Positions 11,711-33,249 of a stretch of DNA of 56,289 nucleotides are shown here, piece by piece (the stretch's first letter is position 1; each line of letters begins with the position of its first letter). Origin of the DNA: Planosporangium thailandense. GTDB taxonomy: Bacteria > Actinomycetota > Actinomycetes > Mycobacteriales > Micromonosporaceae. The DNA lies in NCBI RefSeq assembly GCF_011947195.1, contig NZ_JAATVY010000034.1:1-56289 (forward strand), written 5' to 3'. The position numbers and the translations under genes were made by a program. The notes under the pieces were generated by a model. It ran no database searches. It was given only the letters and a program-made list of their open reading frames with translations, and had not been told where the DNA came from.

Positions 11711-13348
11711 CTACAGCGTCCTAGGATATTCATGCGGGTGGTCCAACACGGCGGGCTGGGCGAGCCCACACGACATCACGCTCATCGTGTGAGTACTCCC
11801 CGGTGCCCGGCCGCGCACCAGATCGGCGGCCTTTTCAGCGATCATGATCGTCGGGGCGTTGGTGTTGCCGCGCACCACCGTCGGCATGACCGAGGCGTCC
11901 ACCACCCGCAGGCCGGCCACCCCGTGCACCCGAAGCTCGGCGTCCACGACCGGTCCGATGGCGCAGGTGCCTGCCGGATGGTAGAGGGTGTGTGCGGTAC
12001 GCCGGATGTGGTGAATGATGTCATCCTCGCGGTCCGATGCCGGGGCGCGCAGCGGTTCGCCCCGATGCGGCGCCAGCGCCGGCTGCCCGGCGATGTCCAG
12101 GAGCGTCCGTACCGCGCGGACCATCGTCACGAGGTCCTCGGCGGTGGTCAGGTAGTTGTGCAGGATGCGCGGCTTGGCTGTCGGCAACGCCGAGCGAAGC
12201 GACACTCGCCCGCGGCTGGTGGGGCGCAGTTGGCAGGCACCGGCGATGAAGGCGTCCTCGTCGGCCGCTGCCAGCCCATCGTCGAGGAAGGCCACCGGCG
12301 TGGCGTGGACCTGGAAGTCGGGTGCGGACAGGTCGTCCTGGCTTCGGAAGAAGCCACCGGCCTCGCCGATGTTGGAGGTGAGCGGCCCGCGTCCCTCGCG
12401 GATGAACAGTTCCAGGTTCTCGGCGCTCTCGGCCGTCCGTAGCGTGGGCGTGCCGGTGCGGTAGGCCAGCGGCACGTGGACGTGGTCCTGCAGGTTCTCC
12501 CCTACCGGCAGGTCGATACGGGGTGCGATGCCGTGGCGGCGCAGTTCGTCGGCCGGTCCGATGCCGGACAGCATCAGAAGCTGCGGGGAGTTGTAGGCCC
12601 CGGCCGATACCAGCACTTCCCGGGCGGCCCGAAGTTCCGACCGCGCTCCGCCGCGCTCCACCTCGACGCCGACCGCCCGGTCGCCGTCGAACAGAAGCCG
12701 GGTCGCCACCGCGTCGGTGATGACCCATAGGTTGGGTCGGCTCAGCGCCGGGCGCAGGTACGCGTCCGCTGTGCTCCAGCGCCGCCCGTCGCGCTGGGTG
12801 AGCTGGTAGAAACCGACGCCGTCCTGGGCGGGGCCGTTGAAGTCGTCGGTGTGCGGGTGGCCGGCCTGTTCGGCCGCGGCGACCCAGGCCTGCATGATCG
12901 GGTGCTGCGAGCGGCCGTCGCTGACGCGCAGTGGACCGCCGGTGGCGTGCCAGGCGTTCGCCCCGCGCTCGTTGTCCTCAGCACGGAGGAAGTACGGCAG
13001 CACGTCCTCCCAACCCCAGCCGACCGCGCCGAGCGCACGCCACTCCTCGTAGTCGGCGGCATTACCTCGAATGTAGATCATGGCGTTCACCGACGAGCAG
13101 CCACCAAGCATCCGGCCCCGGGGCAGGTACTTGCGCCGCTCGTCGAGGCCGGGCTCGGGCTCGCTCAGGTACGCCCAGTCCCACGACGTCTGCATCAGCT
13201 TGCCGAACGCGGCCGGGATGTGGATCTCCTCGGCGGAGTCCGGCGGCCCCGCCTCGATCAGCGCCACCCGTACCTCCGGGTCCTCGCTGAGCCGGGCGGC
13301 GAGCACGCAGCCGGCCGAACCGGCACCGATGATCACGTAGTCGTACAT
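11711..13348 (-). CDS. GMC-family flavin oxidoreductase (choline-dehydrogenase-like)
   Basis: 545 residues. ATG 13348 follows AGGAGGTG by a proper spacing, which settles the start. [20 protein letters not shown] is the FAD-binding motif, followed by the GMC signature [20 protein letters not shown]. The C-terminal part has the active-site histidine region ([14 protein letters not shown]) and the second GMC motif with the catalytic asparagine ([20 protein letters not shown]). Members oxidise alcohols such as choline, alkanols or polyethylene glycol. It lies 100 bases downstream of an APC permease on the same strand, as an uptake-oxidation pair, and near the quaternary-amine operon, which favours an amino-alcohol substrate by inference only. 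Confidence 0.9.
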
Positions 13349-13448
13349 GGAACACCTCCTGGGAACGACGGCGGACGGATCGGCCACGGTGGACGGTGCG
13401 AGGCCGGGATGCGCGATGGCCGGCCGCAGTGGCTGTCGGCCATGCTCA

Positions 13449-14930
13449 TCAGGCCTCCTGGTGTGCTGTGGACGCCGGGGTGACGGCATCATTGCGAGAA
13501 CCTATGCCGAGCTCCGCGGTCAGCATCGTGCCAATGCGCCGGGCAAGCCCGGGCGCGGCGAACACGATAACCAGGCCCGCCGCACACCAGGCGAACGCGA
13601 CGAACGGTGAGGCGAGCAGGCTGTTCTGGCCTTTGACGTTGTAGTAGAAGACAGCGACGATGACGCCGATGCCCAACAGCGGCACCACGGTCTCGTAGCG
13701 CGGAATGGTGACCCGGCCGGTCGCGATGAAGCGGATGACGCCAACCTGGACCAGAAGATAAGCGAACATCAGGCAGACCGCGCCGCTGACAGCGAAGTAG
13801 AAGTACGAGTCCAAAGCGGCGCTCCCGGTTCCGATCCGTGGCCGCCCGGTCGCCCACGACACGATGTCGACGACGGCGGTGACAGCGAGCACCGCCCACA
13901 GGGCGTTACGCGGGCTGTCGTGCCGTGGATCCAGCTCCGCCAACCGCTTCGGCCCAAACCCGTCGCGGGCCAAGGCGTAGATCATCCGGCTCGCGGTCGC
14001 GGCGGCGGACAGGTGCGACGCGAACGCCGACATCACGGAGGTGAACAGGATCACCAGCGCGAACCACAGACCCACGTACCGGCCGCCGAGCGTGCCCAGG
14101 GTGTTGCCCGAGTTCTTGAACGCCTCTAGGCCGTTGCCGTCGGTGCCGAAACCGATGGTCTGGACGAACATGACGCCGACGAACAACGCCGACGTCAGCA
14201 GTACCGCTCCGCCCAGCGCCCGCGGAATGTTACGGCGTGGGTCGTCGGTCTCCTCACCGAGAACCGCGCATGCCTCGAATCCTGCCCAGGACAGGAACGC
14301 CGCGACCACGGCACCCATGACGGCCTGCAAGCTCGTACCGGACACCGTGAACGCCGAGAAGTCGATGCCCGTGGAGGGTGCGCCGCCGGTGCCGAGGATG
14401 ACGAAGGCGAGCACGACCATGAAGACGACGCCGATGCCTTCGATCGCCAGCAGAACACGGGCGACGATCTTCGTGTCGCGGGTGTTGAGAACGCCCGACA
14501 GCACGAGACCGACGACGACAGTCACTCCCCAGGAGAGCTGGAAGGGTTGCGCGCTATGCGGCTGGGCGGCGGCCAGCAGGGCGTTGGTGAAGGCGCCGAG
14601 GGCCGCGAGTGTGCAGACGGAAAAGAACAGGTACGTACCCAACAACGCGAAGCCGGCGAAGAACCCGGCACGCGGACCGACGGTCGCACCGACAAGCGCG
14701 TATGCGCTGCCCGAGTGGTTGTAGTAACGGGTGAGCCGGACGAACCCGTAGGCAACGAGGGCCACGCCGACGCAGCCGAGCACGAACACCAGCGGAACGG
14801 CCTTGCCGACCGCGTCGATCACGCCCTGGCCGTTGCCGGCCATGGCGAGCGTCGGGCCCATCAGCCCCAGAGAGAGCGCAAGCGCTTCCCAGAGCCGCAG
14901 CGTGCGACGATGCTTGGAGACTGCGGTCAC
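13449..14930 (-). CDS. APC-superfamily amino-acid/amine permease
   Basis: 493 residues from GTG 14930, with GGAG seven bases upstream. About twelve hydrophobic segments are visible. LALSLGLMGPTLAMAGNGQG is the first-helix substrate loop and FLSWAGFEACAVLGEETDDPRRNIPRA is the conserved APC helix-6 to loop region. It should import an amino acid or amine by proton or sodium symport. The gene reads toward the GMC oxidoreductase, so the pair is likely co-transcribed and the substrate of the permease is probably that of the flavoenzyme. Confidence 0.88.
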   Translation of the reverse strand: MTAVSKHRRTLRLWEALALSLGLMGPTLAMAGNGQGVIDAVGKAVPLVFVLGCVGVALVAYGFVRLTRYYNHSGSAYALVGATVGPRAGFFAGFALLGTYLFFSVCTLAALGAFTNALLAAAQPHSAQPFQLSWGVTVVVGLVLSGVLNTRDTKIVARVLLAIEGIGVVFMVVLAFVILGTGGAPSTGIDFSAFTVSGTSLQAVMGAVVAAFLSWAGFEACAVLGEETDDPRRNIPRALGGAVLLTSALFVGVMFVQTIGFGTDGNGLEAFKNSGNTLGTLGGRYVGLWFALVILFTSVMSAFASHLSAAATASRMIYALARDGFGPKRLAELDPRHDSPRNALWAVLAVTAVVDIVSWATGRPRIGTGSAALDSYFYFAVSGAVCLMFAYLLVQVGVIRFIATGRVTIPRYETVVPLLGIGVIVAVFYYNVKGQNSLLASPFVAFAWCAAGLVIVFAAPGLARRIGTMLTAELGIGSRNDAVTPASTAHQEA

Positions 14931-15801: not shown

Positions 15802-16626
15802 TCAGGCCATCAGGCGGACGTGACCGAACTCGGCGGCCAACTCCCGGGCGACGCTCAACGTGAGCCGGCCCGCCTCGTCCAGCCGCTTGCCGAGCCGGCC
15901 CTTCGGCGCGGACACGTTGATCGCCGCGACGATCTGACCACGGAAGTCGCGTACCGGCGCGGAGACCCCGACGACGCCGTCCTCGAACTCCTCGTCGACG
16001 GCCGCGTAACCGCGCTTGCGGATCCCGGCGACCTCGCGGAGCAGGTCGTCGGCCGTGTGCACCCGCGGACGCGGGCCGGGGTGCAGGTCGGCCGGTTCGG
16101 CGAGCAGGCTGCGGAGCGCCTCGGGCGGCCAGTCCGAGACGAGGACCCGGCCGGCCGAGGTCAGGGGCGCCGGGACGCTGACGCCTTCCCAGCCCAGGGC
16201 GCGGAACGCGTGCGACGGTGACACCGACAGCAGGGTCAGGACGGCCGAGCCGCGCAGCACGCACAGGTGTGTGGTCTCGTTGAGCACGGCGACCAGCCGG
16301 CGCAGGTAGGGCACAGCCGCCCGGACCAGGTGCGCCTCGACCGTACGGGCGGCCAGGGCGTAGACGCGCCAGCCCAGCCGGTACTCGAGCGTGTCCGGAT
16401 CCCGCTCGACCATGCCTTCGGCCTCCAGCGCGCGCAGTGCCCGCGACATCTGGCTCTTCTCCCGGCCGAGTGACTCCGCGATCCGGCTGACCCCGAGACC
16501 CGGCGCGCCCTGTGCGGTCGCCAGCAATTCGAGGATCTCCATGTCTCGGCGCAGGCCGGCCGACGGGGCCGAAGATCGCGATGTCGTTGCAGCTGCCGCA
16601 ACAGGTGTTGCATCCATGCAGATCAT
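15802..16626 (-). CDS. IclR-family transcriptional regulator
   Basis: 274 residues from ATG 16626 (MDATPV at 16617 is an alternative). An N-terminal winged helix ([11 protein letters not shown], then [20 protein letters not shown], about residues 28-70) is followed by the IclR effector domain with [20 protein letters not shown] and [10 protein letters not shown]. It is divergent from the ABC-importer operon with only 42 bases between starts, so it almost certainly controls that operon and itself. IclR proteins usually respond to a pathway intermediate. Confidence 0.9.
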
Positions 16627-16668: not shown

Positions 16669-17316
16669 ATGTCGCTCACCGAGTACATCCAGACGCGCTG
16701 GGACCTTCTGTCACAGGCGGCCATGAACCACGTACTGGTCGTCGCCCTGTCGGTCGGCATCGCCACGGTGATCGGCGTCGGCGTCGGGGTGCTCACGTAC
16801 AACCGGCCGCGCCTGTCCGGTATCGCCATCGGCGCGTCCAGCGGGTTCCTGACGATCCCGTCGTTCGCTTTGCTGGGCCTGTTCATCCCGATTCTGGGTC
16901 TCGGGTGGACGTCCACGGTGGTCGCGCTGGTCGGGTACTCGATGTTGCCCATCGTCCGGAACACCGTGGTGGGCCTGCGCGGCGTGGACGCCGCGATGGT
17001 CGAGGCCGGGCGCGGCATCGGGATGAGCGCTGCCGGCGTGATGCTGCGCATCCAGCTTCCGCTGGCCTGGCCGGTGATCCTCACCGGCATCCGGGTCTCC
17101 ACCCAGATGATCATCGGTATCGCGGCCATCGCCGCATACGTCGCCGGGCCCGGGCTGGGCAACCAGATCTTCGACGGGCTGGCGCGACTCGGTTCGGTCA
17201 ACGCGTTGAACGCCGCTCTCGCCGGCACCCTCGGCGTGGTCGTCCTCGCGCTGCTCTTCGACCTCTTCTATCTCGTGATCCGTCACCTCACCACGTCGAG
17301 GGGGCTCCGTGTCTGA
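16669..17316 (+). CDS. OpuC-type ABC importer permease (first)
   Basis: 215 residues with six hydrophobic segments, of the OpuCB/OpuCD (ProW) type. The EAA-like cytoplasmic loop is VEAGRGIGMSAAGVMLRIQL (about residues 110-129), followed by P-L-A-W-P-V-I-L-T-G-I-R. In this family two different permeases pair with one ATPase and one binding lipoprotein to import glycine betaine, choline, carnitine or related osmolytes. ATG 16669 follows GAGG. Its end overlaps the ATPase start by eight bases. Confidence 0.88.
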   Translation: MSLTEYIQTRWDLLSQAAMNHVLVVALSVGIATVIGVGVGVLTYNRPRLSGIAIGASSGFLTIPSFALLGLFIPILGLGWTSTVVALVGYSMLPIVRNTVVGLRGVDAAMVEAGRGIGMSAAGVMLRIQLPLAWPVILTGIRVSTQMIIGIAAIAAYVAGPGLGNQIFDGLARLGSVNALNAALAGTLGVVVLALLFDLFYLVIRHLTTSRGLRV

Positions 17317-18328
17317 CGACAACGCTGACGACCACGCCGACAGCAGCGGCACCACCGGCGAGCGCATCGAACTCGTCGGCCTCACCAAGCGGTACCCGGG
17401 CCAGGCCGAGCCGGCCGTGGAGAACGTGGACCTGGACGTGGCAGCCGGTGAGCTTGTCGTCTTCGTCGGACCGTCCGGCTGCGGCAAGACCACCACCATG
17501 AAGATGATCAACCGGTTGATCGAGCCCACTTCCGGCTCCATCCGCATCGACGGCCGCGACGTCCTGGCCATGCAGCCCGACCAGCTACGCCGGCACATCG
17601 GGTACGTCATCCAGCAGATCGGCCTGTTTCCGCACATGACGATCGCCCAGAACATCGGCATTGTGCCGAACCTGCTCAAGTGGCCGAAGAAGAAGGTCGC
17701 CGAGCGGGTCGACCACCTGCTTCACCTCGTCGGGCTGGACCCGACCGTGCACGCCCGCCGGTACCCGCGCCAACTGTCCGGTGGACAGCAGCAGCGCATC
17801 GGCGTCGCCCGGGCCCTCGCAGCCGACCCGCCGGTGATGCTGATGGACGAGCCGTTCGGCGCCACCGACCCGATCACCCGGCTCCGCCTGCAGGACGAGT
17901 TCCTGCGCCTGCAGCGGGAGCTACGCAAGACGATCATCTTCGTCACGCACGACTTCGAGGAAGCGATCAAACTCGGCGACCGGATCGCGGTGCTGCGGGA
18001 ACGCTCGCACATCGCCCAGTACGACACCCCCGCCAACATCCTCGCCCGGCCTGCGGACGAGTACGTGGCGAGCTTCGTGGGCGGCGACGCGACGCTCAAG
18101 CGGCTCGCGCTGCACACCGTCGGCGAAATCGACGGCGAACCCGGCGCACCGGCGGACCTCCCGGGCGTGGCACCGACGGCGACGCTACGCGAAGCACTCG
18201 ACGTCATGGTCGCCCGCGGCAGCGACCGGATCTCGGTCGACGGCACCGTCGTCACGTTCGCCCAGTTGTCGGCCGCCGTGCGCGCCGCCGACGCGGTCGA
18301 CCGGCAGCAGACCACTGCGGGGCACTGA
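17309..18328 (+). CDS. OpuC-type ABC importer ATPase
   Basis: 339 residues, GTG start overlapping the upstream permease. Walker A GPSGCGKTT (54-62), the Q-loop in YVIQQIGLFPHMTI, the signature LSGGQQQR, Walker B MLMDEPF and the H-loop FVTHDF are all present. It closely follows OpuCA, which energises quaternary-amine uptake. The C-terminal 80 residues replace the two CBS domains of many OpuCA proteins with a short tail, so the usual ionic-strength sensor is reduced or absent; this fits a catabolic rather than osmoregulatory importer. The D-loop reads FGATD where FGALD is usual. Confidence 0.9.
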   Translation: MSDDNADDHADSSGTTGERIELVGLTKRYPGQAEPAVENVDLDVAAGELVVFVGPSGCGKTTTMKMINRLIEPTSGSIRIDGRDVLAMQPDQLRRHIGYVIQQIGLFPHMTIAQNIGIVPNLLKWPKKKVAERVDHLLHLVGLDPTVHARRYPRQLSGGQQQRIGVARALAADPPVMLMDEPFGATDPITRLRLQDEFLRLQRELRKTIIFVTHDFEEAIKLGDRIAVLRERSHIAQYDTPANILARPADEYVASFVGGDATLKRLALHTVGEIDGEPGAPADLPGVAPTATLREALDVMVARGSDRISVDGTVVTFAQLSAAVRAADAVDRQQTTAGH

Positions 18329-19107
18329 TGGCCACCGACACCTTCACCAGCGCCTTTCCCACCGTCGCCCGGCGGCGCGCCGGCGCGCCCCGGATCTTCC
18401 GCCACGTCGGGCTGCCACTCGGCGTGGCGGTGACGCTGCTCCTGCTGTACCTGTGGGTGTCCAGCCGCACGCTGGACAGCATCGAACGCCGCACCCTCAA
18501 CGCGGAGTACCTGCGCTCCCGTACCCTCGAACACCTCACGCTGACCGGGTTCGCGACGCTGCTCGTCGTCGTGATCGCCATCCCGCTCGGGATCCTGCTG
18601 TCCCGGCCGCGGGCCCGGTGGGTCAGCCCGGCCGTGCTGGGCCTGGCGAACCTCGGGCAGGCCACGCCCGCGATCGGGCTGCTGGTGCTGCTGACCATCA
18701 AGCTCGGCGTCGGATTCCGGGTCGCGATGATCGGCCTGGTCGCGTACGCCGTCCTGCCGGTGCTGCGCAACACCCTCGTCGGCATCCAGCAGGTCGATCC
18801 GGCGCTGATCGAGGCCGCGCGCGGTATGGGGATGACCCGCTGGCAGGTGCTGCGCCGGATCGAACTCAAGCTCGCCGTGCCGGTCATCCTGGCCGGCCTG
18901 CGCACCGCGCTGGTGCTGTCGGTCGGGGTCGCGACGCTCGCGACGTTCGTCAACGCCGGCGGCCTCGGCGACATCATCGTCAACGGAATCAAGCTCCAGC
19001 GCACGCCCGTCCTCGTGACGGGAAGCGTGCTCACCGCCTGCATCGCCTTCATCGTCGACTGGATCGGCAGCCTCGCCGAGGACGTCCTGCGGCCACGCGG
19101 CGTCTGA
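18328..19107 (+). CDS. OpuC-type ABC importer permease (second)
   Basis: 259 residues from ATG 18328, which shares one base with the stop of the ATPase gene (TGATG). A long first hydrophobic helix (VAVTLLLLYLWVSS) is followed by five more. The EAA loop is IEAARGMGMTRWQVLRRIEL. It is paralogous to the first permease, as in OpuCB/OpuCD pairs. The frame is open far upstream but that part only overlaps the ATPase gene. Confidence 0.88.
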   Translation: MATDTFTSAFPTVARRRAGAPRIFRHVGLPLGVAVTLLLLYLWVSSRTLDSIERRTLNAEYLRSRTLEHLTLTGFATLLVVVIAIPLGILLSRPRARWVSPAVLGLANLGQATPAIGLLVLLTIKLGVGFRVAMIGLVAYAVLPVLRNTLVGIQQVDPALIEAARGMGMTRWQVLRRIELKLAVPVILAGLRTALVLSVGVATLATFVNAGGLGDIIVNGIKLQRTPVLVTGSVLTACIAFIVDWIGSLAEDVLRPRGV

Positions 19108-19139
19108 CCCTCACCGCACTATCCAGAAAGGACATACGG

Positions 19140-20114
19140 ATGCGCTTATCAGCCGCGTCACGCGCCACCCGAGCCGCGGTGTCCGGCGCCGCGACCATCG
19201 CGGCCGTCGCCGCCCTCGCCGCGTGCGGCAACGACAGCACGCAGGCCAACCAGGGCAGCCTCGGGCAGGAGCTCAAGGGCGCCAAGTTCACCGTCGGCTC
19301 CAAGGACTTCTCCGAGTCGATCATCCTCGGCCAGATCACCATGCAGCTTCTGTCCGGGCACGGAGCGACGGTCATCGACAAGACCAACATCAAGGGCTCC
19401 ACGAACACGCGTACCGCCCTGATGTCCGGCGACATCGACATGTACTGGGAGTACACCGGCACCGGATGGATCACCTATCTCAAGAAGACCACCCCGATCC
19501 CGGACCCGAAGCAGCAGTACGACGCGGTGGCCAAGGAGGACCTGTCTGCCAACAAGGTGGTCTGGGGCGCCCCGGCGCCGCTCAACAACACGTACGCCTT
19601 CGCCATCCGCAAGGAGAAGGCCTCCGAACTGGGGGTCAAGACCCTCTCCGACCTGAAGCAGTTGGTGAGCAGCAAGCCTGACCAGGCGACGTTCTGCATC
19701 GAGAGCGAGTTCTCCACCCGCGACGACGGCTGGCCCGGACTGCAGAAGGCCTACGGCATCGACGTACCGAAGAACAACGTCAAGCTGCTCGACACCGGCG
19801 TCATCTACACCGAGACCAAGAAGGGCCAGACGTGCAACTTCGGGGAGGTCTTCGCGACCGACGGGCGGATCGCCTCGCTCGGCCTGACCGTCCTCGACGA
19901 TGACAAGAAGTTCTTCCCGGTCTACAACGCGGCACTGACCCTGCGCCAGGACACCGACCAGAAGTACCAGGACATCCGCAAAATCATCGACCCGGTCGCG
20001 GCGAAGCTGACCAACGAGGTCATGCAGCAGCTCAACGCGAAGGTGGACGCCGACGGGCAGGAGCCGTCCAAGGTCGCCAAGGATTGGCTGACCTCCCAGG
20101 GGTTCCTCAAGTGA
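19140..20114 (+). CDS. Quaternary-amine-binding lipoprotein (OpuCC/OsmF-like)
   Basis: 324 residues from ATG 19140 after AGAAAGGAC. A lipoprotein signal ends in LAAC (Cys29). The mature part begins with KFTVGSKDFSESIILGQI, typical of OpuAC-type binding proteins, and has DIDMYWEYTGTGWITYL in the first lobe. Such proteins bind trimethylammonium groups in a box of aromatic side chains; the W and Y residues in this segment are candidates. It is anchored outside the membrane and delivers substrate to the two permeases. It overlaps the next gene by four bases. Confidence 0.9.
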   Translation: MRLSAASRATRAAVSGAATIAAVAALAACGNDSTQANQGSLGQELKGAKFTVGSKDFSESIILGQITMQLLSGHGATVIDKTNIKGSTNTRTALMSGDIDMYWEYTGTGWITYLKKTTPIPDPKQQYDAVAKEDLSANKVVWGAPAPLNNTYAFAIRKEKASELGVKTLSDLKQLVSSKPDQATFCIESEFSTRDDGWPGLQKAYGIDVPKNNVKLLDTGVIYTETKKGQTCNFGEVFATDGRIASLGLTVLDDDKKFFPVYNAALTLRQDTDQKYQDIRKIIDPVAAKLTNEVMQQLNAKVDADGQEPSKVAKDWLTSQGFLK

Positions 20115-20626
20115 CCATGCAGATCGGCGAGAGCTTCATCGGTACGGGGCCGTCGGCGGCGCACGTCAACACCGTGCTCGGCGACCGCTCCGGCCCGGCG
20201 GGGGCGGCGTGGGCAACCGCCCTCGCCACCCCCACCGCCGGACACGCGCCGTTCGTCGCGGTCCTCCAGCCCGGCGTACCGACCCGGCCGCCGACCCTGT
20301 TCGTCAACAAGGCCACCGTCGCCGGAGCCGCACACGCCAACCTGACCTGGGGTCCGGCGCAGGCCGGCATCGCCGCCGGTGTCATGGACGCGGTCACCGC
20401 CGGCGTGATCGACCGCGAGCGGGTCGACGACCTCGTCGTGATCGCCGCGGTGTGGGTCGATCCGCAGGCCGGCCCGGACGACGCCGACGCCGTCTACCGC
20501 AACAACCGCCTCGCCACCGCCCGCGCGTTGCAGGCCGGCGCCCACGGTAGGCCCACGGTGGACGAGGCGCTGGCCGCCGCCGAGGAGCCCGCCAACCCGT
20601 TCTACACCGCGCCAGGGGGATCATGA
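20111..20626 (+). CDS. Formaldehyde-activating enzyme (Fae) homologue
   Basis: 171 residues from GTG 20111 (GTGA overlap with the binding-protein stop; ATG 20117 is the alternative). The length and whole-chain pattern match Fae, which condenses formaldehyde with tetrahydromethanopterin: QIGESFIGTGPSAAH with the histidine (His18) corresponding to the catalytic one, GHAPFVAVL, the TLFVNKATV strand, WGPAQAGIAAGVMDAVTAGV and the closing NPFYTA. Fae is best known from methylotrophic proteobacteria and methanogens. No methanopterin or other C1 genes are near, so the carrier may be different or the protein may only bind formaldehyde or a related aldehyde. It is embedded between the importer and the enolase-family gene. 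Confidence 0.85.
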   Translation: MTMQIGESFIGTGPSAAHVNTVLGDRSGPAGAAWATALATPTAGHAPFVAVLQPGVPTRPPTLFVNKATVAGAAHANLTWGPAQAGIAAGVMDAVTAGVIDRERVDDLVVIAAVWVDPQAGPDDADAVYRNNRLATARALQAGAHGRPTVDEALAAAEEPANPFYTAPGGS

Positions 20627-21732
20627 AAATCACCGGGATCGGCCTGGACCGGATGCGCCTTCCGCTGGACCCGGCGTTCAACGCCGCCTGGGACCCGGTG
20701 CCACGCACCTCCTTCGACGCGACGCTGGTCACCGTGCGGACCGACGAGGGTGTGGTCGGTTACGGGTCGGGCGACACGATGGACGGATTCGAGGCGTACG
20801 AGCACCTGTTCCTCGGCCGCGATCCGCTCGCGATCGTCAACCACGTCAAGACCCTGGAGACGGTCAACTTCCACGCCGGCCGGTACTGGCCCCTCGAAGC
20901 GGCCCTGTGGGACATCATCGGCAAGGTCTGCGGCCAGCCGGTCGCGACCCTGTTCGGCGGCGCCACCACCCGGCTGCCCGCGTACGCGTCCTTCGGCGAG
21001 CTGAAACCACCGCGGGCCCGGGCGGAGGCGGCGGTGGCCGCCCGGGAGGCCGGGTTCCGGGCGATGAAGATCCGCATCGCCCGGGAACGGCTCGACGAGG
21101 GGCTGGCGGCTGTGCGGGCGACCCGCGAGGCCGTCGGCGACGACGTCGACATCATGGTCGACCTCAACCAGCTGTGGCGGATGGCCGGCGACATCGACGC
21201 GGCGCTCGACCTCGTGTCGGTACGGAAACTGGCCGACAGTCTCGCCGAGCTCGGCGTGCTGTGGCTGGAGGAGCCGCTGCCGCAGCACGACGTCCCGGGC
21301 ATGCGGATGATCCGGGCGCACACCGGCATCCGGGTGGCCGGCGGCGAGATGGTACGCACGATGCCGGAACTGCTGCACCTCCTCGAGGGCGACGCGCTCG
21401 ACGTGTACCAGCCGGACGTGGTGCTCTCGGTGGGGATGCTGCGCGCCCGCACCATCGCCGAACTGGCCCTGGCCAAGCACCGCTGGTTCACGCCGCACAC
21501 CTGGAGCAACGGCCTCGGCATCCTGGCCAACCTGCATGTCGTCGCCGGCGTAGGCGGTGGTCCCTACGTCGAGTACCCGTACGACCCGCCCGGCTGGACC
21601 GCCCAGCGGCGCGACTTCTTCCTGGCCGAACCGGTCCAGGTGGACGCCGACGGCTACCTCGACGTTCCCCGGACTCCGGGCCTGGGCGCCGACATCGACC
21701 TCGACTCCGTTCGCACATTCGCTCTGACCTGA
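20623..21732 (+). CDS. Enolase-superfamily enzyme, mandelate-racemase subgroup
   Basis: 369 residues; ATGA overlap with the Fae stop and GGGGG upstream. The capping domain (1-120) is followed by the barrel: K149-I-R151 on the second strand, metal ligands D180 (MVDLNQ), E216 or E217 (WLEEP) and E242 (GGEM), and the D265/H292 dyad (YQPDVV, FTPHTW). K-x-R plus a His-Asp dyad is the arrangement of acid-sugar dehydratases and racemases. It abstracts the proton beside a carboxylate, then racemises, epimerises or dehydrates. Betaine epimerases also belong to this superfamily, which fits the quaternary-amine importer, but the substrate cannot be read. Confidence 0.88.
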   Translation: MKITGIGLDRMRLPLDPAFNAAWDPVPRTSFDATLVTVRTDEGVVGYGSGDTMDGFEAYEHLFLGRDPLAIVNHVKTLETVNFHAGRYWPLEAALWDIIGKVCGQPVATLFGGATTRLPAYASFGELKPPRARAEAAVAAREAGFRAMKIRIARERLDEGLAAVRATREAVGDDVDIMVDLNQLWRMAGDIDAALDLVSVRKLADSLAELGVLWLEEPLPQHDVPGMRMIRAHTGIRVAGGEMVRTMPELLHLLEGDALDVYQPDVVLSVGMLRARTIAELALAKHRWFTPHTWSNGLGILANLHVVAGVGGGPYVEYPYDPPGWTAQRRDFFLAEPVQVDADGYLDVPRTPGLGADIDLDSVRTFALT

Positions 21733-21746
21733 AAGGTTCGTCCACT

Positions 21747-23243
21747 GTGTCCAGCTACGAGCAGTGGCTGCAGCGCGCGGCCACGGTCGCGCCCAGTACC
21801 GGCCTCTACATCGACGGGTCGTTCGTCGACGCGGCGGACGGCGCGACGTTCGTGACGACCAGCCCGCGCGACGGCACCGACCTGGCGTGGGTCGCGGCCG
21901 CCGGCGAAGCTGACGTGGACCGCGCGGTACGGGCCGCGCGGACGGCGTTCGACGACGGGCGCTGGGCCGGTGCCAGCCCACGCCACCGCAAGAAGGTCCT
22001 GCTGCGGCTGGCCGACCTGATGCGCGAGCACCACGAGGAACTGGCGCTGCTGGAGACCCTCGACGCCGGGCACCCGATCGGCGAGTCCCTGCGGGTGGAC
22101 GTGCCCGGCGCCGCGAACTGCATCCAGTGGTACGCCGAGGCCGTCGACAAGCGGTACGACGAGATCGCTCCGACCGGTCCGGACGCGCTCGCCCTGGTCA
22201 CCTGCGAGCCGCTGGGCGTGGTCGGCGCGGTCGTACCGTGGAACTACCCGCTGATCATTACGTCGTGGAAGCTCGGCCCGGCCCTGGCGATGGGCAATTC
22301 CGTGGTCCTCAAGCCCGCCGAGCAGTCGTCGCTGTCCGCGCTACTGCTGGCCGAACTGGCAAGCGAGGCCGGGCTGCCCGACGGGGTGCTCAACGTGGTG
22401 CCCGGGCTGGGTCCCGTCGCCGGCGCGGCGCTGGGCCTGCACCCGGACGTCGACAAGATCGCCTTCACCGGCTCGGTCGAGGTCGGCCGGGCGTTCCTGG
22501 ACTACGCCGCCCGGTCCAACGGCAAGCAGATCGCGCTGGAACTCGGCGGCAAGTCGCCGCAGGTGGTGCTCGCCGACGCCCCCGACCTCACCGCGGCCGC
22601 CTCCGCCGTCGCCTGGGGCATCTTCTACAACGCCGGGCAGACCTGCAACGCCGGTTCGCGGTTGCTGGTCGACCGGCGCGTCGCCGACGACCTGCTCACC
22701 GAGGTGGTGAAGGTGGCCACGTCGATCCAGGTCGGCGACCCGCTCGACCCCGACACGCAGATGGGCCCGGTGGTCGACTCGGGCCAGCTCGACCGGGTGC
22801 TCGGCTACATCCAGCTCGGCCGCGACGAGGGTGCCGAGGTGCTCACCGGCGGCGGCCGGATCCGCGAGGACTCCGGCGGCACGTTCGTGGCGCCGACCGT
22901 ACTGTCTGAAGTAGACAACAAGGCGAGGGTGGCCCAGGAGGAGATCTTCGGTCCGGTCCTGACCTCCGTCACCGTGTCCGGCGAGCAGGAAGCGGTGCGG
23001 CTGGCCAACCAGACCCGGTATGGGCTGGCCGCCAGCGTCTGGACCCGTGACCTCGGCACCGCGCACCGGGTCTCCCGGGCACTGCGCGCGGGCACGGTCT
23101 GGGTCAACACCTTCGACGCCAGCGACGTGATCACGCCGTTCGGCGGGTTCAAGGACTCCGGCTCCGGCCGGGACAAGTCGCTGCACGCGCTGGACGCCTA
23201 CTCGGCGCTGAAGACCACGTGGATCAACCTGGAGCAGTCGTGA
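21747..23243 (+). CDS. NAD(P)-dependent aldehyde dehydrogenase (PuuC/betaine-aldehyde-dehydrogenase-like)
   Basis: 498 residues from GTG 21747, with GAAAGG about ten bases upstream. Catalytic Cys300 (NAGQTCNAGS), Glu265 (LELGGKSP) and Asn166 (PWNYP) are in place, as is Lys189 of the cofactor pocket. The end, GRDKSLHALDAYSALKTTWI, is like PuuC-type dehydrogenases that act on amino-aldehydes. It would oxidise an aldehyde made earlier in the pathway to the acid. It lies 14 bases after the enolase-family gene and overlaps the next gene by four bases. Confidence 0.9.
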   Translation: MSSYEQWLQRAATVAPSTGLYIDGSFVDAADGATFVTTSPRDGTDLAWVAAAGEADVDRAVRAARTAFDDGRWAGASPRHRKKVLLRLADLMREHHEELALLETLDAGHPIGESLRVDVPGAANCIQWYAEAVDKRYDEIAPTGPDALALVTCEPLGVVGAVVPWNYPLIITSWKLGPALAMGNSVVLKPAEQSSLSALLLAELASEAGLPDGVLNVVPGLGPVAGAALGLHPDVDKIAFTGSVEVGRAFLDYAARSNGKQIALELGGKSPQVVLADAPDLTAAASAVAWGIFYNAGQTCNAGSRLLVDRRVADDLLTEVVKVATSIQVGDPLDPDTQMGPVVDSGQLDRVLGYIQLGRDEGAEVLTGGGRIREDSGGTFVAPTVLSEVDNKARVAQEEIFGPVLTSVTVSGEQEAVRLANQTRYGLAASVWTRDLGTAHRVSRALRAGTVWVNTFDASDVITPFGGFKDSGSGRDKSLHALDAYSALKTTWINLEQS

Positions 23244-24154
23244 AGATCGGTTTCATCGGCCTGGGCAACATGGGCGGCCCCATGAGCCTCAACCTGCTCG
23301 CCGCCGGATACGACGTCGCCGTGCACGACGTACGGCGGGAGGCGGCCGCCGAGCACGAGCGGCGGGGCGCGGTCTGGGCGGCGACCCCGGCCGGCGCCGG
23401 GCACGGCCGGGACGCGGTCATCACGATGCTGCCCACGCCGCGCCACGTCGAGACGGTGCTCCTCGGCCCCGCTGGGCTGCTCGACGCACTGGCCCCCGGG
23501 TCGGTGTGGGTGGACATGTCCACGTCGGTACCGGAGGTGGCCGACCGGGTCCGGGCACGGGCTGCGGATCGAGGCGTGGAGGTGCTCGACGCTCCCGTCT
23601 CCGGCATGGCACACGGCGCCCGTACCGGCAGCCTGCAGATCTTCGTGGGCGGCGACGAGGCGACGTACCGGCGGGTGCGGCCGGTGTTCGAGGTCCTGGG
23701 CGACCCCGAGCGCATCATGCGGGTCGGCGGGCACGGTGCCGGGTACACCGTGAAGCTGATGATCAACCTGCTGTGGTTTTCGCACCTGGTCGCCACGACC
23801 GAGGTCCTCACCATCGGCACCCGGGCCGGCGTCGACCTCGCGGTGCTGCGCGCCGCGCTGCTGGCCAGCCCCGCCGCCAGCAACTTCCTCGACCGCGACG
23901 TCCTGTCGGTGCTGGCCCACGGCGACTATGACGACTCGTTCGCCATGGCGCTGGCCTGCAAGGATCTCGGGCTCGCGGTCGACCTCGCCGGCGCCGTCGG
24001 GGTGCCGGCCGAACTGTCCGCCCTCGTCGAGCAGGTGTACCGGCGGGCCCGCGCCGCGTACGGCGACCTCGCCGGCGAGATGAGCCCGGTACGTCTGTGG
24101 GAGGACCTCACCGGCACTCCCCTGCGCCTGCCCGTACCCGTTCTCCAGGAGTGA
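23240..24154 (+). CDS. NAD(P)-dependent beta-hydroxyacid dehydrogenase (3-hydroxyisobutyrate dehydrogenase family)
   Basis: 304 residues from GTG 23240 (GTGA overlap). Rossmann motif GFIGLGNMGGPM, substrate loop DAPVSGMAHGA (around 118-126) and catalytic Lys172 with Asn176 (YTVKLMINL) define the family, which interconverts 3-hydroxyacids and semialdehydes (3-hydroxyisobutyrate, tartronate semialdehyde, sulfolactaldehyde). In this operon it probably handles the product of the enolase-family enzyme or feeds the aldehyde dehydrogenase. The specificity is not readable. Confidence 0.88.
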   Translation: MKIGFIGLGNMGGPMSLNLLAAGYDVAVHDVRREAAAEHERRGAVWAATPAGAGHGRDAVITMLPTPRHVETVLLGPAGLLDALAPGSVWVDMSTSVPEVADRVRARAADRGVEVLDAPVSGMAHGARTGSLQIFVGGDEATYRRVRPVFEVLGDPERIMRVGGHGAGYTVKLMINLLWFSHLVATTEVLTIGTRAGVDLAVLRAALLASPAASNFLDRDVLSVLAHGDYDDSFAMALACKDLGLAVDLAGAVGVPAELSALVEQVYRRARAAYGDLAGEMSPVRLWEDLTGTPLRLPVPVLQE

Positions 24155-24156
24155 CC

Positions 24157-25326
24157 ATGCTGTCCACCAACGGCCTCACGCTGAGCCCGATGCCCGCCGC
24201 GCACCTCGCCGCCGGCGCGATCACCGGCCTGGGCGACCTGACCCGGTCCACCGGCGCCCGCCGCGCGGTGATCGTCACCGACCCCGGCATCGCCGCGACC
24301 CCGATCCTCTCCGCGGTCCTCGACGCCCTGGGAGATCTGCCTGCCGCTGTTTTCAGCGGCGTGCACGCCAACCCGACCACGGACGACATCGCTTTGGGTG
24401 CCGAGGTCGCCATCGACCACGGGGCGCAGGTGGTCGTAGCCGTCGGCGGCGGGTCGGCCATCGACGCCGCCAAGGGCATCGCCGTCGCCGCGGTCAACCC
24501 GCAGCGCGGCCGCGACCTCGACTACCGCAGCGGCTTCGCCAACCCGGCGCTGCCGCTCCTCGCGGTACCCACCACCGCCGGCACCGGCGCCGAGACCAAC
24601 GCGTTCGGCGTCGTGACCGATGTGGCGTCGCACCGCAAGTTCTACGTCGGGCACGCCAGCGCGCTGCCCCGGGCCGCGGTGCTCGACCCGGAGTTGACGG
24701 TCGGGCTGCCGCCCGGACAGACCGCGGCGACCGGGATGGACGCGCTCACCCACGCGCTGGAGTCCTACTCCTCCGTACGCGCCAACCCGTGGTCGGACGG
24801 GATCGCACTCCAGGTGATCCGGATCGTGTCGCGGCACCTGCCGCGCGCGTACCGGGACGGCAGCGATCTGGAGGCCCGGGCGCAGATGCTGCTCGCGGCC
24901 CACATGGCCGGCGTCGGGATGGCCGCGACCGGCCTCGGGATCTGCCACGGCATCGGCCACCCGCTCGGCGGCCGGTTCGACCTCGCGCACGGGGTCGCGC
25001 TGACCATGCTGCTGCCGCACGTGCTCCGCTTCAACCTGCCGGTACGGCTGGAGCGCACCGCCGACATCGCATTCGCGCTCGGCGTCGGGGAGACCGACAG
25101 GAGTGTCGAACGCAATGCGGAGGCGGCGATTGACGCCGTGGCCGCACTTGCCGGTGAGGTGGGGTTGACGGGCGGGCTCGGCGACCACGGGGTCGGCGCT
25201 GACGACTTCGACCTGCTGGCGGCCGACGCGCTCGCCGACGAGGTCATGGCCAACACGCCCCGCTTCCCCACCGCCGACGACGTACGCGCGATCCTGTCCG
25301 CGGCCGTTCATGGAGCCGGGAGGTAG
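24157..25326 (+). CDS. Iron-type (group III) alcohol dehydrogenase
   Basis: 389 residues from ATG 24157 with AGGAG directly upstream, two bases after the previous stop. GGGSAIDAAKG (98-107) binds the cofactor; PTTAGTGAE follows; metal ligands are D195, H199 (GMDALTHALE), H264 and H278 (CHGIGHPLGGRFDLAHG). It reduces or oxidises an aldehyde/alcohol with NAD(P) and a divalent metal. It is the last gene of the operon. Some relatives act on formaldehyde or lactaldehyde, which would match the Fae homologue, but that is inference. Confidence 0.9.
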   Translation: MLSTNGLTLSPMPAAHLAAGAITGLGDLTRSTGARRAVIVTDPGIAATPILSAVLDALGDLPAAVFSGVHANPTTDDIALGAEVAIDHGAQVVVAVGGGSAIDAAKGIAVAAVNPQRGRDLDYRSGFANPALPLLAVPTTAGTGAETNAFGVVTDVASHRKFYVGHASALPRAAVLDPELTVGLPPGQTAATGMDALTHALESYSSVRANPWSDGIALQVIRIVSRHLPRAYRDGSDLEARAQMLLAAHMAGVGMAATGLGICHGIGHPLGGRFDLAHGVALTMLLPHVLRFNLPVRLERTADIAFALGVGETDRSVERNAEAAIDAVAALAGEVGLTGGLGDHGVGADDFDLLAADALADEVMANTPRFPTADDVRAILSAAVHGAGR

Positions 25327-25440: not shown

Positions 25441-28397
25441 CAGTCCTCCCAATGCAGTCATATGACCCATGCCCGGAGGCTGCTCGCCGTCGCACGATTC
25501 TTGTCGTGAACACGAGACCAATCCTCGTGGGGCGCACGGCCGAACTGGAACAGATCGACTCGCTGCTCGCCGGCCACCGCCCGATCGGGCCCGGTCTGCT
25601 GCTACGCGGCGACCCGGGGGTGGGAAAGACCGCGCTGCTGGACGCGGCAGCGGTCCGAGCCGAGGCGGCCGGTATGCGGGTGCTACGCGCCCCCGGCGCG
25701 GAGTTCGAGGCCGCCATCCGCTTCTCGGCGCTGCACCACCTGCTCGACCCGCTGCGCGAACGCGCCGACCGGCTCGCCTCCTGCCATCGCGACGTCCTCC
25801 ACCAGGTCTTCGACCTCACGCCGGGACCGGCGCCGGACCGGCTGGTCGTCTCGACGGCGGCGCTGGCCCTGCTGGGCCAGGTCGCCGCCGAACGCCCGTT
25901 ACTGCTGACCATCGACGACGTGCCATGGATCGACCACGCCAGCGCCACCGTGCTGGGGTTCGTCACCCGCCGCATCGGCAACGACCCCATCGCCTTCCTG
26001 ACCGCCGCCCGTACCGGGGTGGACAGCTTCTTCGACCAGGTCCGCCTGCCCGAACGGGAGATCAGCCCGCTCGGCGAGCAACCCGCGGCCACCCTGCTGG
26101 ACATCCTGCATCCGAACCTGGCACCACCCGTACGGCGGCGCCTGCTCGACGAGGCCGCGGGCAACCCGCTCGCGCTACGGGAACTACCTGGCTTGTTGAC
26201 CGAGCGGCAGCGCTGCGGCCAGGACCCGCTGCCCGCATTCCTATCCCTCAATGGGCGGCTGGAGGCGATCTTCGCCGCCGGGGTGCGGGCCCTACCCGCA
26301 CCGACCCATCAGACGCTGCTGCTGGCCGCGCTGGAGCCTGATGCGAGCCTGGCCACGATCCGGCCGGCGGCGCGGGGCCGTGCGGACGTCGACGACCTTG
26401 CCCCCGCGCAGCAGGCGAACCTCGTCCGCATCGATGCGGTCACCGGCCCCATGGTGTTTCGCCACCCGCTGATCCGCTCGGCGATCGTGCAGACATCGTT
26501 GCCGAGTGAACGCCGAGCGGCGCACCAGGCCCTGGCTGCCACCCTGGCCGGCGACCCGGGTCGCCGGGCGTGGCATCTGGCCGAAGCCGCGACCGGACCC
26601 GACGAGACGGTGGCCCGGGTGCTGGAGGAGGCGGCCCTTGCCGCCTGGCGGCGCGGCCGCGCGTCTGCCGCGGTAGCCGCGCTCGTGCGGGCCGGCGAAC
26701 TCAGCCCGCACCCGGCCGACCGGTCCCGCCGGCTGGCCGAGGCCGCCTACCTCGCCAACACATCCGGTCAACTCGACCAGGTGACCCGGCTGTTGGCCGA
26801 CGCCGGACAGGCACAGGACACACCGACCGGACTGATCTTCGCCGCCACGGCCCAACTCCTCGCGTATGGTGAGGGCGATATCGACGCCGCCCACCACGTG
26901 CTGGCCCGGGCGCTCGACGCTCGGGCGCTTAACGACGTCGCCGACACCGCCAAGACCAACAACGACTGGGACGGCTACGGGATCCTCGCGCTGCTGTTCG
27001 TGTGCGTCTACAGCAACCGACAAGAGCCGTGGGAACTCCTCAAGACCGCGCTGGCCCGGCTCGAACCAGAGGCGGTATCCCCCCTGCGGCTGTGCTACGA
27101 CGCGTACGCCGACCCCGCCCGAACGTCCCACCCCGTGCGGGAGGACCTCGCCCCCGCATTCGACGCCCTTCCCACCGACGCGGCACCCTGGCAGCTCATA
27201 CCCCTGGCCTACGCGGCCCTCCAGGTGGACACACTGTCGGACTATCGGTACCTGTGCCGGCGCATGATCGAACGAGAACGCGACGGCGGTGCGATCTACA
27301 TGGCCGTTGTCGGGTTGCTGATGCTCAGCGTCGATTCCTATGTCCACGGGCAGTGGGACGAGGCCGAGAACCTGGCGAGGGAGGGGCTGGACCTGGCAGT
27401 CGCCCACGGCTACCACCTTCTGCAGGGTCAGCTTCGGTGCAGGTTGGCACTCTTCGCCGCCGCCCGCGGGAACGTGGACCTCACCCGGGCCCTGGCCGAC
27501 GAGATCGCCACCTGGGCCGCGCCGCGCGGCGTCGAGCTGACGCAAGCACTGGCCTGGCACGCGCGCGCCATCGCGGCCCTGGGCCAGGGCGACTACGAAG
27601 ACTCCTACGTCCAGGCGTCCCGGGTCAACCCGCTCGGCACGCTCAGCCTTGGCATCCCGGGCCGGTGGTTGGTCCTGGACCTGGTCGAGGCGGCGGTCCG
27701 CACCGGACGCACCGACCAGGCCCGCGCCTACGTCGCCGCCGCCCAGCAGGCCGGCATCGCCCGGATCTCCCCGCGCGCCGCCCTCCTCATCGCCGGGGCC
27801 GCGGCCCTGGCCGCCGACGACGACCAAGCCGGCCTGCTGTTCGAGACCGCACTCTCACTGCCCGAGGTCGACCGGTGGCCGTTCGACCACGCGCGCATCC
27901 AGCTCGCCTACGGCGAATGGCTACGTCGCACCCGCGACACCACCCGCGCCCGCCTGCACCTACGCGCCGCCCTGGACACCCTCAACCGGCTCGGTGCCCG
28001 GCCATGGGCCGTACGGGCCCAGAACGAACTACGCGCCACCGGGATCGCCACCACCGCACGACCCGACACCCGCTCGGCCACACTGACCGCGCAGGAACGA
28101 CAGATCGCCACGCTGGCCGCCACCGGCCTGACCAACAAACAGATCGGCCAGAAGCTGTTCCTGTCCCACCGCACGGTGGGTGCCCACCTGCACCGGATCT
28201 TCCCCAAGCTCGGCATCACCTCACGCGCCGCCCTCCGCGACGCACTGGAAATGATCACATCCGACGCCGATGAGTACGCCCCACAGTTACCGCCCCCACC
28301 GACGACCAGGACGGCCCACCAGCCTAGCCGGCAACGCACTGAACACCGCTGAAACGCCTAATTCCGTGCTCAACACGCTGAACACCCGCACTCATCT
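25441..28397 (+). repeat. Duplicated block, copy 1 (LAL regulator with flanks)
   Basis: The sequence from CAGTCCTCCCAATGC at 25441 to about 28397 recurs at 33301-36430, including 70 bases before the regulator and about 40 after its stop (TCCGTGCTCAACACGCTGAAC). The two copies differ by scattered substitutions and two in-frame insertions in copy 2. Confidence 0.85.
25506..28352 (+). CDS. LAL-family (large ATP-binding LuxR-type) transcriptional regulator, copy 1
   Basis: 948 residues from GTG 25506 (VNTRPILVGRTAELEQI); ATG 25452 is in frame but would add residues encoded by the region conserved upstream. GDPGVGKTA is the Walker A loop (about 35-43) and LLLTIDDVPWID the Walker B region. The middle is TPR-like helical repeats. 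The last 70 residues carry a LuxR helix-turn-helix (LTAQERQIATLAATGLTNKQ, LSHRTVGAHLHRIF). Such regulators bind ATP and an inducer and activate nearby genes. GGAGG at 25474-25478 is 27 bases from GTG, too far to set the start. The protein is nearly identical in plan to the gene at 33.4 kb. Confidence 0.88.
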   Translation: MNTRPILVGRTAELEQIDSLLAGHRPIGPGLLLRGDPGVGKTALLDAAAVRAEAAGMRVLRAPGAEFEAAIRFSALHHLLDPLRERADRLASCHRDVLHQVFDLTPGPAPDRLVVSTAALALLGQVAAERPLLLTIDDVPWIDHASATVLGFVTRRIGNDPIAFLTAARTGVDSFFDQVRLPEREISPLGEQPAATLLDILHPNLAPPVRRRLLDEAAGNPLALRELPGLLTERQRCGQDPLPAFLSLNGRLEAIFAAGVRALPAPTHQTLLLAALEPDASLATIRPAARGRADVDDLAPAQQANLVRIDAVTGPMVFRHPLIRSAIVQTSLPSERRAAHQALAATLAGDPGRRAWHLAEAATGPDETVARVLEEAALAAWRRGRASAAVAALVRAGELSPHPADRSRRLAEAAYLANTSGQLDQVTRLLADAGQAQDTPTGLIFAATAQLLAYGEGDIDAAHHVLARALDARALNDVADTAKTNNDWDGYGILALLFVCVYSNRQEPWELLKTALARLEPEAVSPLRLCYDAYADPARTSHPVREDLAPAFDALPTDAAPWQLIPLAYAALQVDTLSDYRYLCRRMIERERDGGAIYMAVVGLLMLSVDSYVHGQWDEAENLAREGLDLAVAHGYHLLQGQLRCRLALFAAARGNVDLTRALADEIATWAAPRGVELTQALAWHARAIAALGQGDYEDSYVQASRVNPLGTLSLGIPGRWLVLDLVEAAVRTGRTDQARAYVAAAQQAGIARISPRAALLIAGAAALAADDDQAGLLFETALSLPEVDRWPFDHARIQLAYGEWLRRTRDTTRARLHLRAALDTLNRLGARPWAVRAQNELRATGIATTARPDTRSATLTAQERQIATLAATGLTNKQIGQKLFLSHRTVGAHLHRIFPKLGITSRAALRDALEMITSDADEYAPQLPPPPTTRTAHQPSRQRTEHR

Positions 28398-29498: not shown

Positions 29499-30328
<830 letters not shown>

Positions 30329-32854: not shown

Positions 32855-33249
32855 TTAACTACGAACTGTGAGGCCGCGAGCGGCGTGCCGGCGGGCCGAG
32901 ACGAGCGCGTCAATGCCCTGTCCATACTGGTCTATCGCCCGGTAGTCGTAGTGCCAGACACCGTTGGCCTTGACGTAGGTCTCATCGACGAACCACCTGT
33001 CACCTGGTACGCGGCGGCAGAATCGGGCGGCATCGGCCAGCAGCGTTGTGAACCGCTGCACCCACCGGTAGACGGTGACGTGGTCGACCTCGATGCCGCG
33101 TCCACCGACCGCTCCTCCGCGTCCCGATACGACAGGTTGTAACGCAGGTACCAGCGGACCGCGACCACGATCACCTCGGGCGGGAACCGGAACCCGGAGA
33201 GCGCCGACTTCGGCGGCAGCCAGGAGCGAGGACGGGTTGATGACTTCAC
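32855..33249 (-). mobile_element. IS6-family transposase remnant (second)
   Basis: From 33249 the minus strand reads KSALSGFRFPPEVIVVAVRW and YLRYNLSYRDAEE, shifts frame near 33105, then continues RGIEVDHVTVYRWVQRFTTL and the first catalytic aspartate in GDRWFVDETYVKANG, ending near 32855. The second D and the E of the DDE triad are gone. It is better preserved than the scrap at 6.2 kb but is clearly defunct. Confidence 0.8.

Follow-up and report, generated by a model that had tools for sequence, protein, structure and literature searches.

What does a homologue of the formaldehyde-activating enzyme Fae do inside an operon that encodes an importer for quaternary amines? The question is raised by a stretch of 56,289 nucleotides from Planosporangium thailandense (contig NZ_JAATVY010000034.1; hereafter the window), in which nine co-directional genes occupy positions 16669-25326 of the + strand. 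The presence of Fae is usually taken to indicate one-carbon metabolism linked to methanopterin, and the original prediction, made from the letters of the window, had proposed that here it captures formaldehyde. Our preferred reading, to which we assign a probability of roughly 0.45, is that the operon degrades an imported compound of the betaine or choline type, and that its Fae homologue acts on an aldehyde or carbinolamine intermediate of this degradation independently of tetrahydromethanopterin (H4MPT). We propose that Fae-type chemistry is kept because the protein retains the Fae fold and its conserved histidine.

The Fae homologue is the fifth gene of the operon (20111..20626, starting at GTG 20111 or ATG 20117). 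Its product scored 175.7 bits against PF08714 (curated cut-off 27; E 9.2e-52) and 156.2 bits against the NCBI equivalog TIGR03126 (cut-off 118.05), and it is the single PF08714 match in the genome to which the window belongs (7.0 Mb, 114 contigs). The predicted structure has a mean predicted local distance difference test score of 96 and a predicted template modelling (TM) score of 0.91. Its five best PDB matches are all chains of 1y5y and 1y60, the canonical Fae of Methylorubrum extorquens (E 2e-17 to 7e-17), with TM 0.85-0.91, root-mean-square deviation 1.3-1.6 A and an identity of only 34-35%. As judged by family and structure models, the fifth operon gene is a true member of the Fae family.

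We placed this protein in a tree of 64 rows, made up of 52 rows to which we give the working name FaeX, nine canonical rows and three Fae2/Fae3-like rows. The canonical rows are eight copies from plasmid records (L053-L058, L061; two of them identical) together with 1Y5Y, while L104, which duplicates the position of L033, and an incomplete second copy of the canonical kind in L061 were left out of the tree and of the residue counts; L033 and L087 carry identical Fae proteins. In this tree, whose bootstrap had not settled, the nine canonical rows are split off by a branch 2.55 long with support 100/100, and the window's protein lies among the 52 FaeX rows, defined as those outside the canonical and the Fae2/Fae3-like groups. 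The Fae2/Fae3-like rows (the second copy of L052, L060 and L062) form a separate group (100/98) from which the conserved histidine is missing; this label is our own provisional assignment.

The histidine belongs to the motif AH(I/V)(D/N) and is H16 (ATG numbering) in the window's FaeX; we take it to be the proposed catalytic residue of Fae. It is present in 9/9 canonical rows and in 50/52 FaeX rows, and a lysine (50/52) and a glutamine (52/52) are likewise conserved with canonical Fae; all three are among ten residues that are invariant when 36 FaeX rows are aligned with 3 canonical ones. At twelve positions that are identical in the nine canonical rows, at least 85% of the FaeX rows differ: D23N, N44P, F48H, V71A, Q78H, F83W, A93G, G116A, F118W, I119V, W121P and I129V (1y5y chain numbering). 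Two of these switches are merely I to V, and the others include D to N (51/52), N to P (52/52), F to H (49/52), F to W (49/52) and W to P (48/52). Identity to the window's FaeX is 29-36% for the canonical copies of L053, L054, L055 and L058 and 33-69% for the other FaeX rows. Thus FaeX shares with canonical Fae the fold, the conserved His, Lys and Gln and both family models, but it stands outside the canonical branch, is switched at twelve positions and has aldehyde and alcohol dehydrogenases as partners, whereas the four canonical copies just named reside in clusters of H4MPT genes.

The original prediction had also remarked that methanopterin genes are missing, and this holds on the marker MCH (PF02289), which was absent from 20/20 Fae-carrying actinobacterial genomes, the window's own included, and was detected in the three archaea used as a positive control. 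Seventeen of the 20 genomes are at least 90% complete and at most 5% contaminated; they derive from a sample of the phylum (17/396) and one of the order (4/200), the window's genome being counted in both. PF09176, taken as a second H4MPT marker, gave no match anywhere, controls included. An ordinary H4MPT-dependent Fae was rejected on the absence of MCH, the residue switches and the position in the tree; on sequence evidence, FaeX is a kind of Fae outside the canonical H4MPT group.

All nine open reading frames (ORFs) of the operon lie where the first reading of the sequence had placed them, run in one direction and belong to the families it had named (Pfam, NCBIfam). Adjacent ORFs overlap by 1-8 bases at stop and start or else are separated by gaps of at most 32. 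The first four encode an OpuC-type ABC importer: a permease of the OpuCB type (16669..17316; PF00528, E 3e-18), for which the top NCBIfam models, ProW and choline permease, both score far under their cut-offs; an ATPase of the ProV/OpuCA type (17309..18328; TIGR01186, 327.3 bits, cut-off 326.6); a second OpuC-type permease subunit (18328..19107; PF00528, E 2.6e-25); and a substrate-binding protein of the OsmF/ProX type (19140..20114; PF04069, OpuAC, E 4.3e-63). FaeX is followed by an enolase-superfamily enzyme of the mandelate-racemase type (20623..21732; PF13378, MR_MLE_C, E 2.3e-51) and by a PuuC-like aldehyde dehydrogenase (ALDH-A; 21747..23243; PF00171, Aldedh, E 2.9e-165), which reaches 622.2 bits against NCBIfam PuuC (cut-off 850) and belongs to a group of eight members in FaeX loci, the window included, with a mutual identity of 52-95%. 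The last two genes encode a beta-hydroxyacid dehydrogenase (bHAD; 23240..24154; PF03446, NAD_binding_2, E 2e-47, and PF14833), with 2-hydroxymethylglutarate dehydrogenase 3cky as top PDB match (8.9e-48), and an iron-containing alcohol dehydrogenase (iron ADH; 24157..25326; PF00465, Fe-ADH, E 2.2e-40, and PF25137), whose top NCBIfam model is lactaldehyde reductase (295 bits, cut-off 523). The bHAD was also considered as an imine reductase, which was rejected given its 3-hydroxyisobutyrate dehydrogenase C-terminal domain (NAD_binding_11) and a conserved lysine in nine aligned relatives. Upstream and divergent lies a gene for an IclR-family regulator (15802..16626, - strand; PF01614, E 2.3e-25, and PF09339, 1.3e-9), which occupies the same position in L002, L007, L009, L010, L125, L129 and L130.

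The operon is found again in other Actinomycetes. The same gene order, from importer through FaeX, enolase and ALDH-A to bHAD, is seen in the window and in L003, L007 (Catenulispora), L125, L129 and L130; iron ADH follows bHAD in the window, L003, L007 and L125, whereas in L129 and L130 it is placed beyond IclR in divergent orientation. These loci constitute type 1, together with L002 as far as its contig reaches, L002 and L003 being closely similar contigs of metagenome-assembled genomes, each cut on one side (L003 begins inside the importer, L002 ends in the enolase). The least selection-prone test of recurrence is seeded with the enolase: among 394 genomes, with an E threshold of 1e-60 and no more than five candidates scored in each, the enzyme was present in 7, and in 6 of these a Fae gene lay directly upstream, or in 5 of 6 without G128, the centre of the search, where Fae was already known. 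A chance assembly of genes was rejected on the recurring order and on this test. L129 and L130 keep the whole operon in genomes of 1.3-1.4 Mb with a local GC of 0.48-0.50.

Concerning the imported compound, the binding protein is informative. According to PMC9732360, the cluster F-III protein EgtUC has a cation site formed by F293, N339, Y341, Y419 and Y443 and binds the carboxylate through K242, T296 and R379. By motif and spacing, the window's binding protein matches these with Y105, N150, Y152, F238 and Y262 for the cation and with K55, T108 and R194 for the carboxylate; the spacings 105-108, 150-152 and 238-262 are as in EgtUC. Residue numbers that we take to be those of Archaeoglobus fulgidus ProX helped in placing the positions. 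The site is kept in 7/7 aligned binding proteins (of ten importer loci), barring N150D in L007 and Y152F in L051. These residues therefore make a quaternary-ammonium carboxylate, or a close mimic of one, the likeliest cargo, and they lend support, at the level of sequence, to the earlier proposal that an N-methylated compound of the betaine or choline type is imported. With the OpuC, ProX, OsmF and EgtU importers the window set shares its four subunits and the cluster F-III site residues, and the PDB relatives of its binding protein include OsmF, EgtUC, ProX and OpuCC; it differs from them in standing in a catabolic gene group beside IclR and in its ATPase, for which no CBS domain was listed, the Pfam scan giving ABC_tran and AAA_21 only. 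Since no CBS domain is listed, uptake is suggested to be catabolic and not osmotically gated.

The enolase has the domains, conserved motifs and PDB relatives of the mandelate-racemase-type acid-sugar dehydratases such as galactonate dehydratase 5OLC, which is its top PDB match (4.2e-32, with no PDB match at 1e-40). It differs from them in lying far under all listed NCBIfam cut-offs (galactonate dehydratase, the best, gives 106.8 bits against 311) and in being linked to Fae in 6/7 genomes. Its K, D, E, E and H motifs, to which we ascribe the roles presumed for this superfamily, are conserved in 11 aligned relatives.

From these parts we infer a direction of flow, a chemistry for FaeX and a class of end product. 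The operon would be a substrate-controlled catabolic unit, whose importer would take up a compound with a quaternary ammonium group or a similar cation, and probably a carboxylate too. The iron ADH, ALDH-A and bHAD, joined in sister operons by a second aldehyde dehydrogenase, ALDH-B, similar to succinic semialdehyde dehydrogenase (SSADH), would convert it by way of an alcohol and an aldehyde to an acid, and the enzyme of the enolase superfamily would abstract the proton next to the carboxylate, leading to an elimination or dehydration. At the aldehyde stage FaeX would reversibly remove or add water, interconverting an aldehyde plus an amine, as the carbinolamine, and the iminium, with an aldehyde and an amine other than formaldehyde and H4MPT. 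Candidate substrates, among which we favour none, are gamma-butyrobetaine, beta-alanine betaine, homocholine, dimethylsulfoniopropionate (DMSP), glyceryl-trimethylhomoserine and guanidino compounds.

We then asked which genes accompany FaeX over 57 loci (L070, L077, L082 and L085 are outside this count), with identity thresholds of our own choice, a reach of 6.5 kb and loci with short flanks included. Their sampling was not random: a single order, searched after a hit there, supplied 18 (L086-L103), and the enolase search another 5. Type 1 without the importer is seen in L030, L046, L126 and L127. Type 1b (FaeX, bHAD and ALDH-B) comprises L009, L010 and L051, from Streptomyces clavuligerus, with the importer, and L005 without it. 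Type 2 (L032, L034) consists of an amino-acid permease, an agmatinase-family ureohydrolase, FaeX, enolase, ALDH-A, iron ADH, ALDH-B and a gamma-aminobutyrate (GABA) transaminase; L031, also of this type, is without enolase, ALDH-A and iron ADH. Type 3 joins FaeX and enolase (L042-L045), to which L042, L044 and L045 add a dipeptide-type binding protein and two zinc alcohol dehydrogenases (Zn-ADHs); L048 has a Zn-ADH and no enolase. In type 4 a 2-oxoglutarate oxygenase-like gene stands beside FaeX (17 loci: L006, L008, L035-L041, L088, L092, L094, L097-L100, L103), and in type 5, from Pseudomonadota, an aldo/keto reductase and ALDH-B do (L004, L049, L050, L052, L059), joined in L004 by genes for a ProX-type binding protein, a permease and an ATPase. 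In the remaining loci the partners are different or none is recognised, an example being a gene that by eye is acyl-CoA-dehydrogenase-like and a short-chain dehydrogenase/reductase (SDR) in L033, L086 and L089. In different lineages FaeX has beside it bHAD, the aldo/keto reductase or, in 4/5 type 3 loci, a Zn-ADH.

The importer (at least three OpuC genes) was counted in 10/57 loci, enolase and ALDH-B in 17 each, ALDH-A in 13, bHAD in 14, iron ADH in 12 and the oxygenase in 17, and 23/57 have ALDH-A or ALDH-B near FaeX. The original prediction had named genomes with the Fae-like gene but without importer and enolase as evidence against itself, and in part they do speak against it: type 1 loci do keep this set together, but 37/57 loci have neither OpuC importer nor enolase, L004 being counted among them despite its transport genes. 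The figure is 37/52 without the loci from the enolase search and 19/34 when the 18 loci of the single order are removed too, while among the 42 loci with at least 4.5 kb on each side, 8 have the importer, 13 the enolase and 26 neither. Given these 37 loci, FaeX is not specific to the substrate of the window's operon. The neighbourhood types cluster on the Fae tree, with 15 changes against a shuffled mean of 43.5, a figure inflated in part by the canonical and Fae2/3-like groups and by near-copies.

As side observations on type 1b, in L005, L009 and L010 ALDH-B is followed downstream by a KduD-like SDR, a GlcD-like FAD oxidase and an FGGY kinase, a set reminiscent of the orphan set ygcW-ygcU-ygcE of Escherichia coli.

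Both the SSADH-like partners and the GABA-type genes found in type 2 suggest that the aldehyde concerned is a carboxylate semialdehyde rather than formaldehyde. Five ALDH-B proteins were scored against SSADH (TIGR01780, cut-off 646.35): L034 (652.5) and L049 (714.4) pass it, whereas L003 (531.5), L010 (531.1) and L051 (527.1) are under it. The two that pass would also suit a different explanation, in which FaeX has lost Fae chemistry and is a lyase, hydratase or isomerase of the imported compound or its acid, within a route resembling that of DMSP, beta-alanine betaine or homocholine and leading to 3-hydroxypropionate or 4-hydroxybutyrate and a semialdehyde. The window's betaine-type importer, iron ADH and ALDH together with a nearby glucose-methanol-choline (GMC) oxidoreductase would resemble the dddT-B-C-A sets of DMSP degradation. 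In S. clavuligerus, importer, FaeX (WP_003952931.1, there annotated fae), bHAD and the SSADH-like ALDH are annotated and an enolase is not, which would make FaeX a candidate for the first step in that locus. However, a piece of 84 residues between FaeX and bHAD (L051:12532-13350) shares 43% identity with the window ALDH over residues 412-495 of the latter and is likely an ALDH remnant, so that a type 1 set in decay, rather than a minimal pathway, may be what is seen there; moreover, the His, Lys and Gln among the ten residues invariant in FaeX and canonical rows argue for kept chemistry. We consider such a loss of Fae chemistry distinctly improbable.

Formaldehyde capture itself, with tetrahydrofolate, mycothiol or another carrier in the place of H4MPT and the formaldehyde released by demethylation of the import, must be weighed next. 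Membership of the Fae family, the conserved histidine and a quaternary-ammonium importer agree with it. So does type 4, since the 2-oxoglutarate oxygenase-like proteins adjoining FaeX in 17/57 loci are of a class that could demethylate. Their HxD...H facial triad and Arg, by motif of the hydroxylase type, are kept in 7/7 aligned proteins (of 17), HalD PF23169 was matched in both proteins scanned, and FaeX and oxygenase possibly form a two-gene module of their own; in L092 the oxygenase gene is divergent from FaeX. Upstream of FaeX in L045, of type 3, lies a Zn-ADH with similarity to S-hydroxymethyl-mycothiol dehydrogenase (278.7 bits, cut-off 512.9), but it matches NDMA-dependent alcohol dehydrogenase best (306.5, cut-off 440). 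A distant homologue, Fae3 of Methyloversatilis, is about 10-fold up on methylamine (PMC5023235). Against formaldehyde, deletion of Fae2 or Fae3 leaves no growth defect according to the same paper, no demethylase was recognised by Pfam or NCBIfam among the nine operon products, residues invariant in the canonical rows are switched in FaeX, and the partners in type 2 (agmatinase-family, GABA transaminase, SSADH-like) and in types 1b and 5 (SSADH-like ALDH) are not one-carbon enzymes.

The genome of P. thailandense contributes a further point. A separate cluster of the choline/betaine type (C28:44000-63999) encodes BetA (859 against a cut-off of 732.1), an ALDH resembling betaine aldehyde dehydrogenase (609.6, under 668.6), a ProV-like ATPase (337.1 against 326.6), PurU (316.6 against 285.95), S-hydroxymethyl-mycothiol dehydrogenase (706.4 against 512.9), serine hydroxymethyltransferase, a ferredoxin reductase and, by eye, a Rieske-type ferredoxin. 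This cluster, which may demethylate betaine, has no Fae. It is likely the ordinary route for choline, betaine and formaldehyde in this organism, and because such a route is already given, the Fae operon looks like something else. With no recognised demethylase in the operon, with a mycothiol-type cluster that has no Fae and with switched residues, the capture of formaldehyde by Fae put forward in the original prediction is unsupported, and we regard it as unlikely.

The Methyloversatilis deletions, without a growth phenotype on C1 compounds (PMC5023235), would also fit a protein that is no enzyme, such as an aldehyde-binding or regulatory subunit retained through linkage, and the FaeX paralogues L101 and L102, in which the conserved histidine is missing, would fit it as well. 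This seems very improbable to us given a histidine kept in 50/52 FaeX rows and a gene retained in its operon in two genomes of 1.3-1.4 Mb. L101 and L102 are flanked, like L095 and L096, by two mutually similar unnamed ORFs (by eye). Fae2 and Fae3 of methylotrophs resemble FaeX in being Fae-family homologues with no assigned role, and differ in forming a group apart that lacks the histidine; fae2 and fae3 types are reported to show no response to environmental conditions (PMC3728764).

Several observations weigh against the preferred reading, in which FaeX acts on an aldehyde or carbinolamine of a betaine- or choline-type route. The aldehyde-amine activity of FaeX is itself a prediction, no enzyme of the operon obviously produces a carbinolamine, and the class model TIGR03126, passed above its cut-off, names FaeX formaldehyde-activating. 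Three of the five scored ALDH-B proteins fall below the SSADH cut-off, and the window's operon is without ALDH-B, whose nearest homologue (59%) is elsewhere in the genome. That homologue stands next to a GABA transaminase (611, cut-off 506.65) in a GABA-type cluster that also has an agmatinase-family gene (C28:12000-31999, on the same contig as the choline/betaine cluster), where we further noted by eye a permease, a Zn-ADH and another ALDH. To these must be added the 37/57 loci without importer and enolase. Besides, with midpoint rooting FaeX is not shown to be one clade, many inner branches of the tree are weak, and the canonical rows are drawn as neighbours of types 2 and 1n at low support values (81/86 and 81/51). 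Finally, the seventh genome with the enolase (L128) has a glycerol kinase, enolase, ALDH-A and a divergent iron ADH and no Fae, so that part of the pathway can run without Fae; the kinase in this region (L128:1984-7268) scores 592.3 against 498 bits for the subfamily and 585.5 for the equivalog, just under 590.35.

Around the operon we noted, at 11711-14930 and behind the divergent IclR gene, a GMC oxidoreductase overlapping what by eye is an APC-type permease. The oxidoreductase scores 601.4, just below the cut-off of 605 for the choline dehydrogenase subfamily, and may share the operon's physiology. By eye, two large LuxR-type regulators (25452-28352 and 33329-36451) are very alike, as if duplicated, and transposase-like ORFs or fragments flank the operon on both sides (2436-3512, 29567-30316, 32855-33457, 36637-37320).

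A literature search covering few subscription journals found no published account of the FaeX kind or of this gene set, in agreement with the earlier statement that no pathway with it had been described; the passages of PMC8879981 on Fae deal with it in combination with H4MPT only. The operon points to an uncharacterised enzyme activity and to an uncharacterised route of the betaine type, kept both in actinomycetes with large genomes and in genomes as small as 1.3-1.4 Mb. It is conceivable, if doubtful, that the Fae fold has been recruited outside methanopterin biochemistry as a general carbinolamine/iminium enzyme for metabolic aldehydes, with FaeX as the first such enzyme and as the missing step in an undescribed betaine- or choline-type route. 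If this is true, there would be a FaeX route in Actinomycetota, with relatives in Pseudomonadota and small-genome lineages, and the name formaldehyde-activating enzyme would be wrong for it. Since the window's FaeX passes TIGR03126 and its S. clavuligerus counterpart bears the annotation fae, automatic naming may lead reconstructions of methylotrophy astray in organisms that lack the methanopterin marker.

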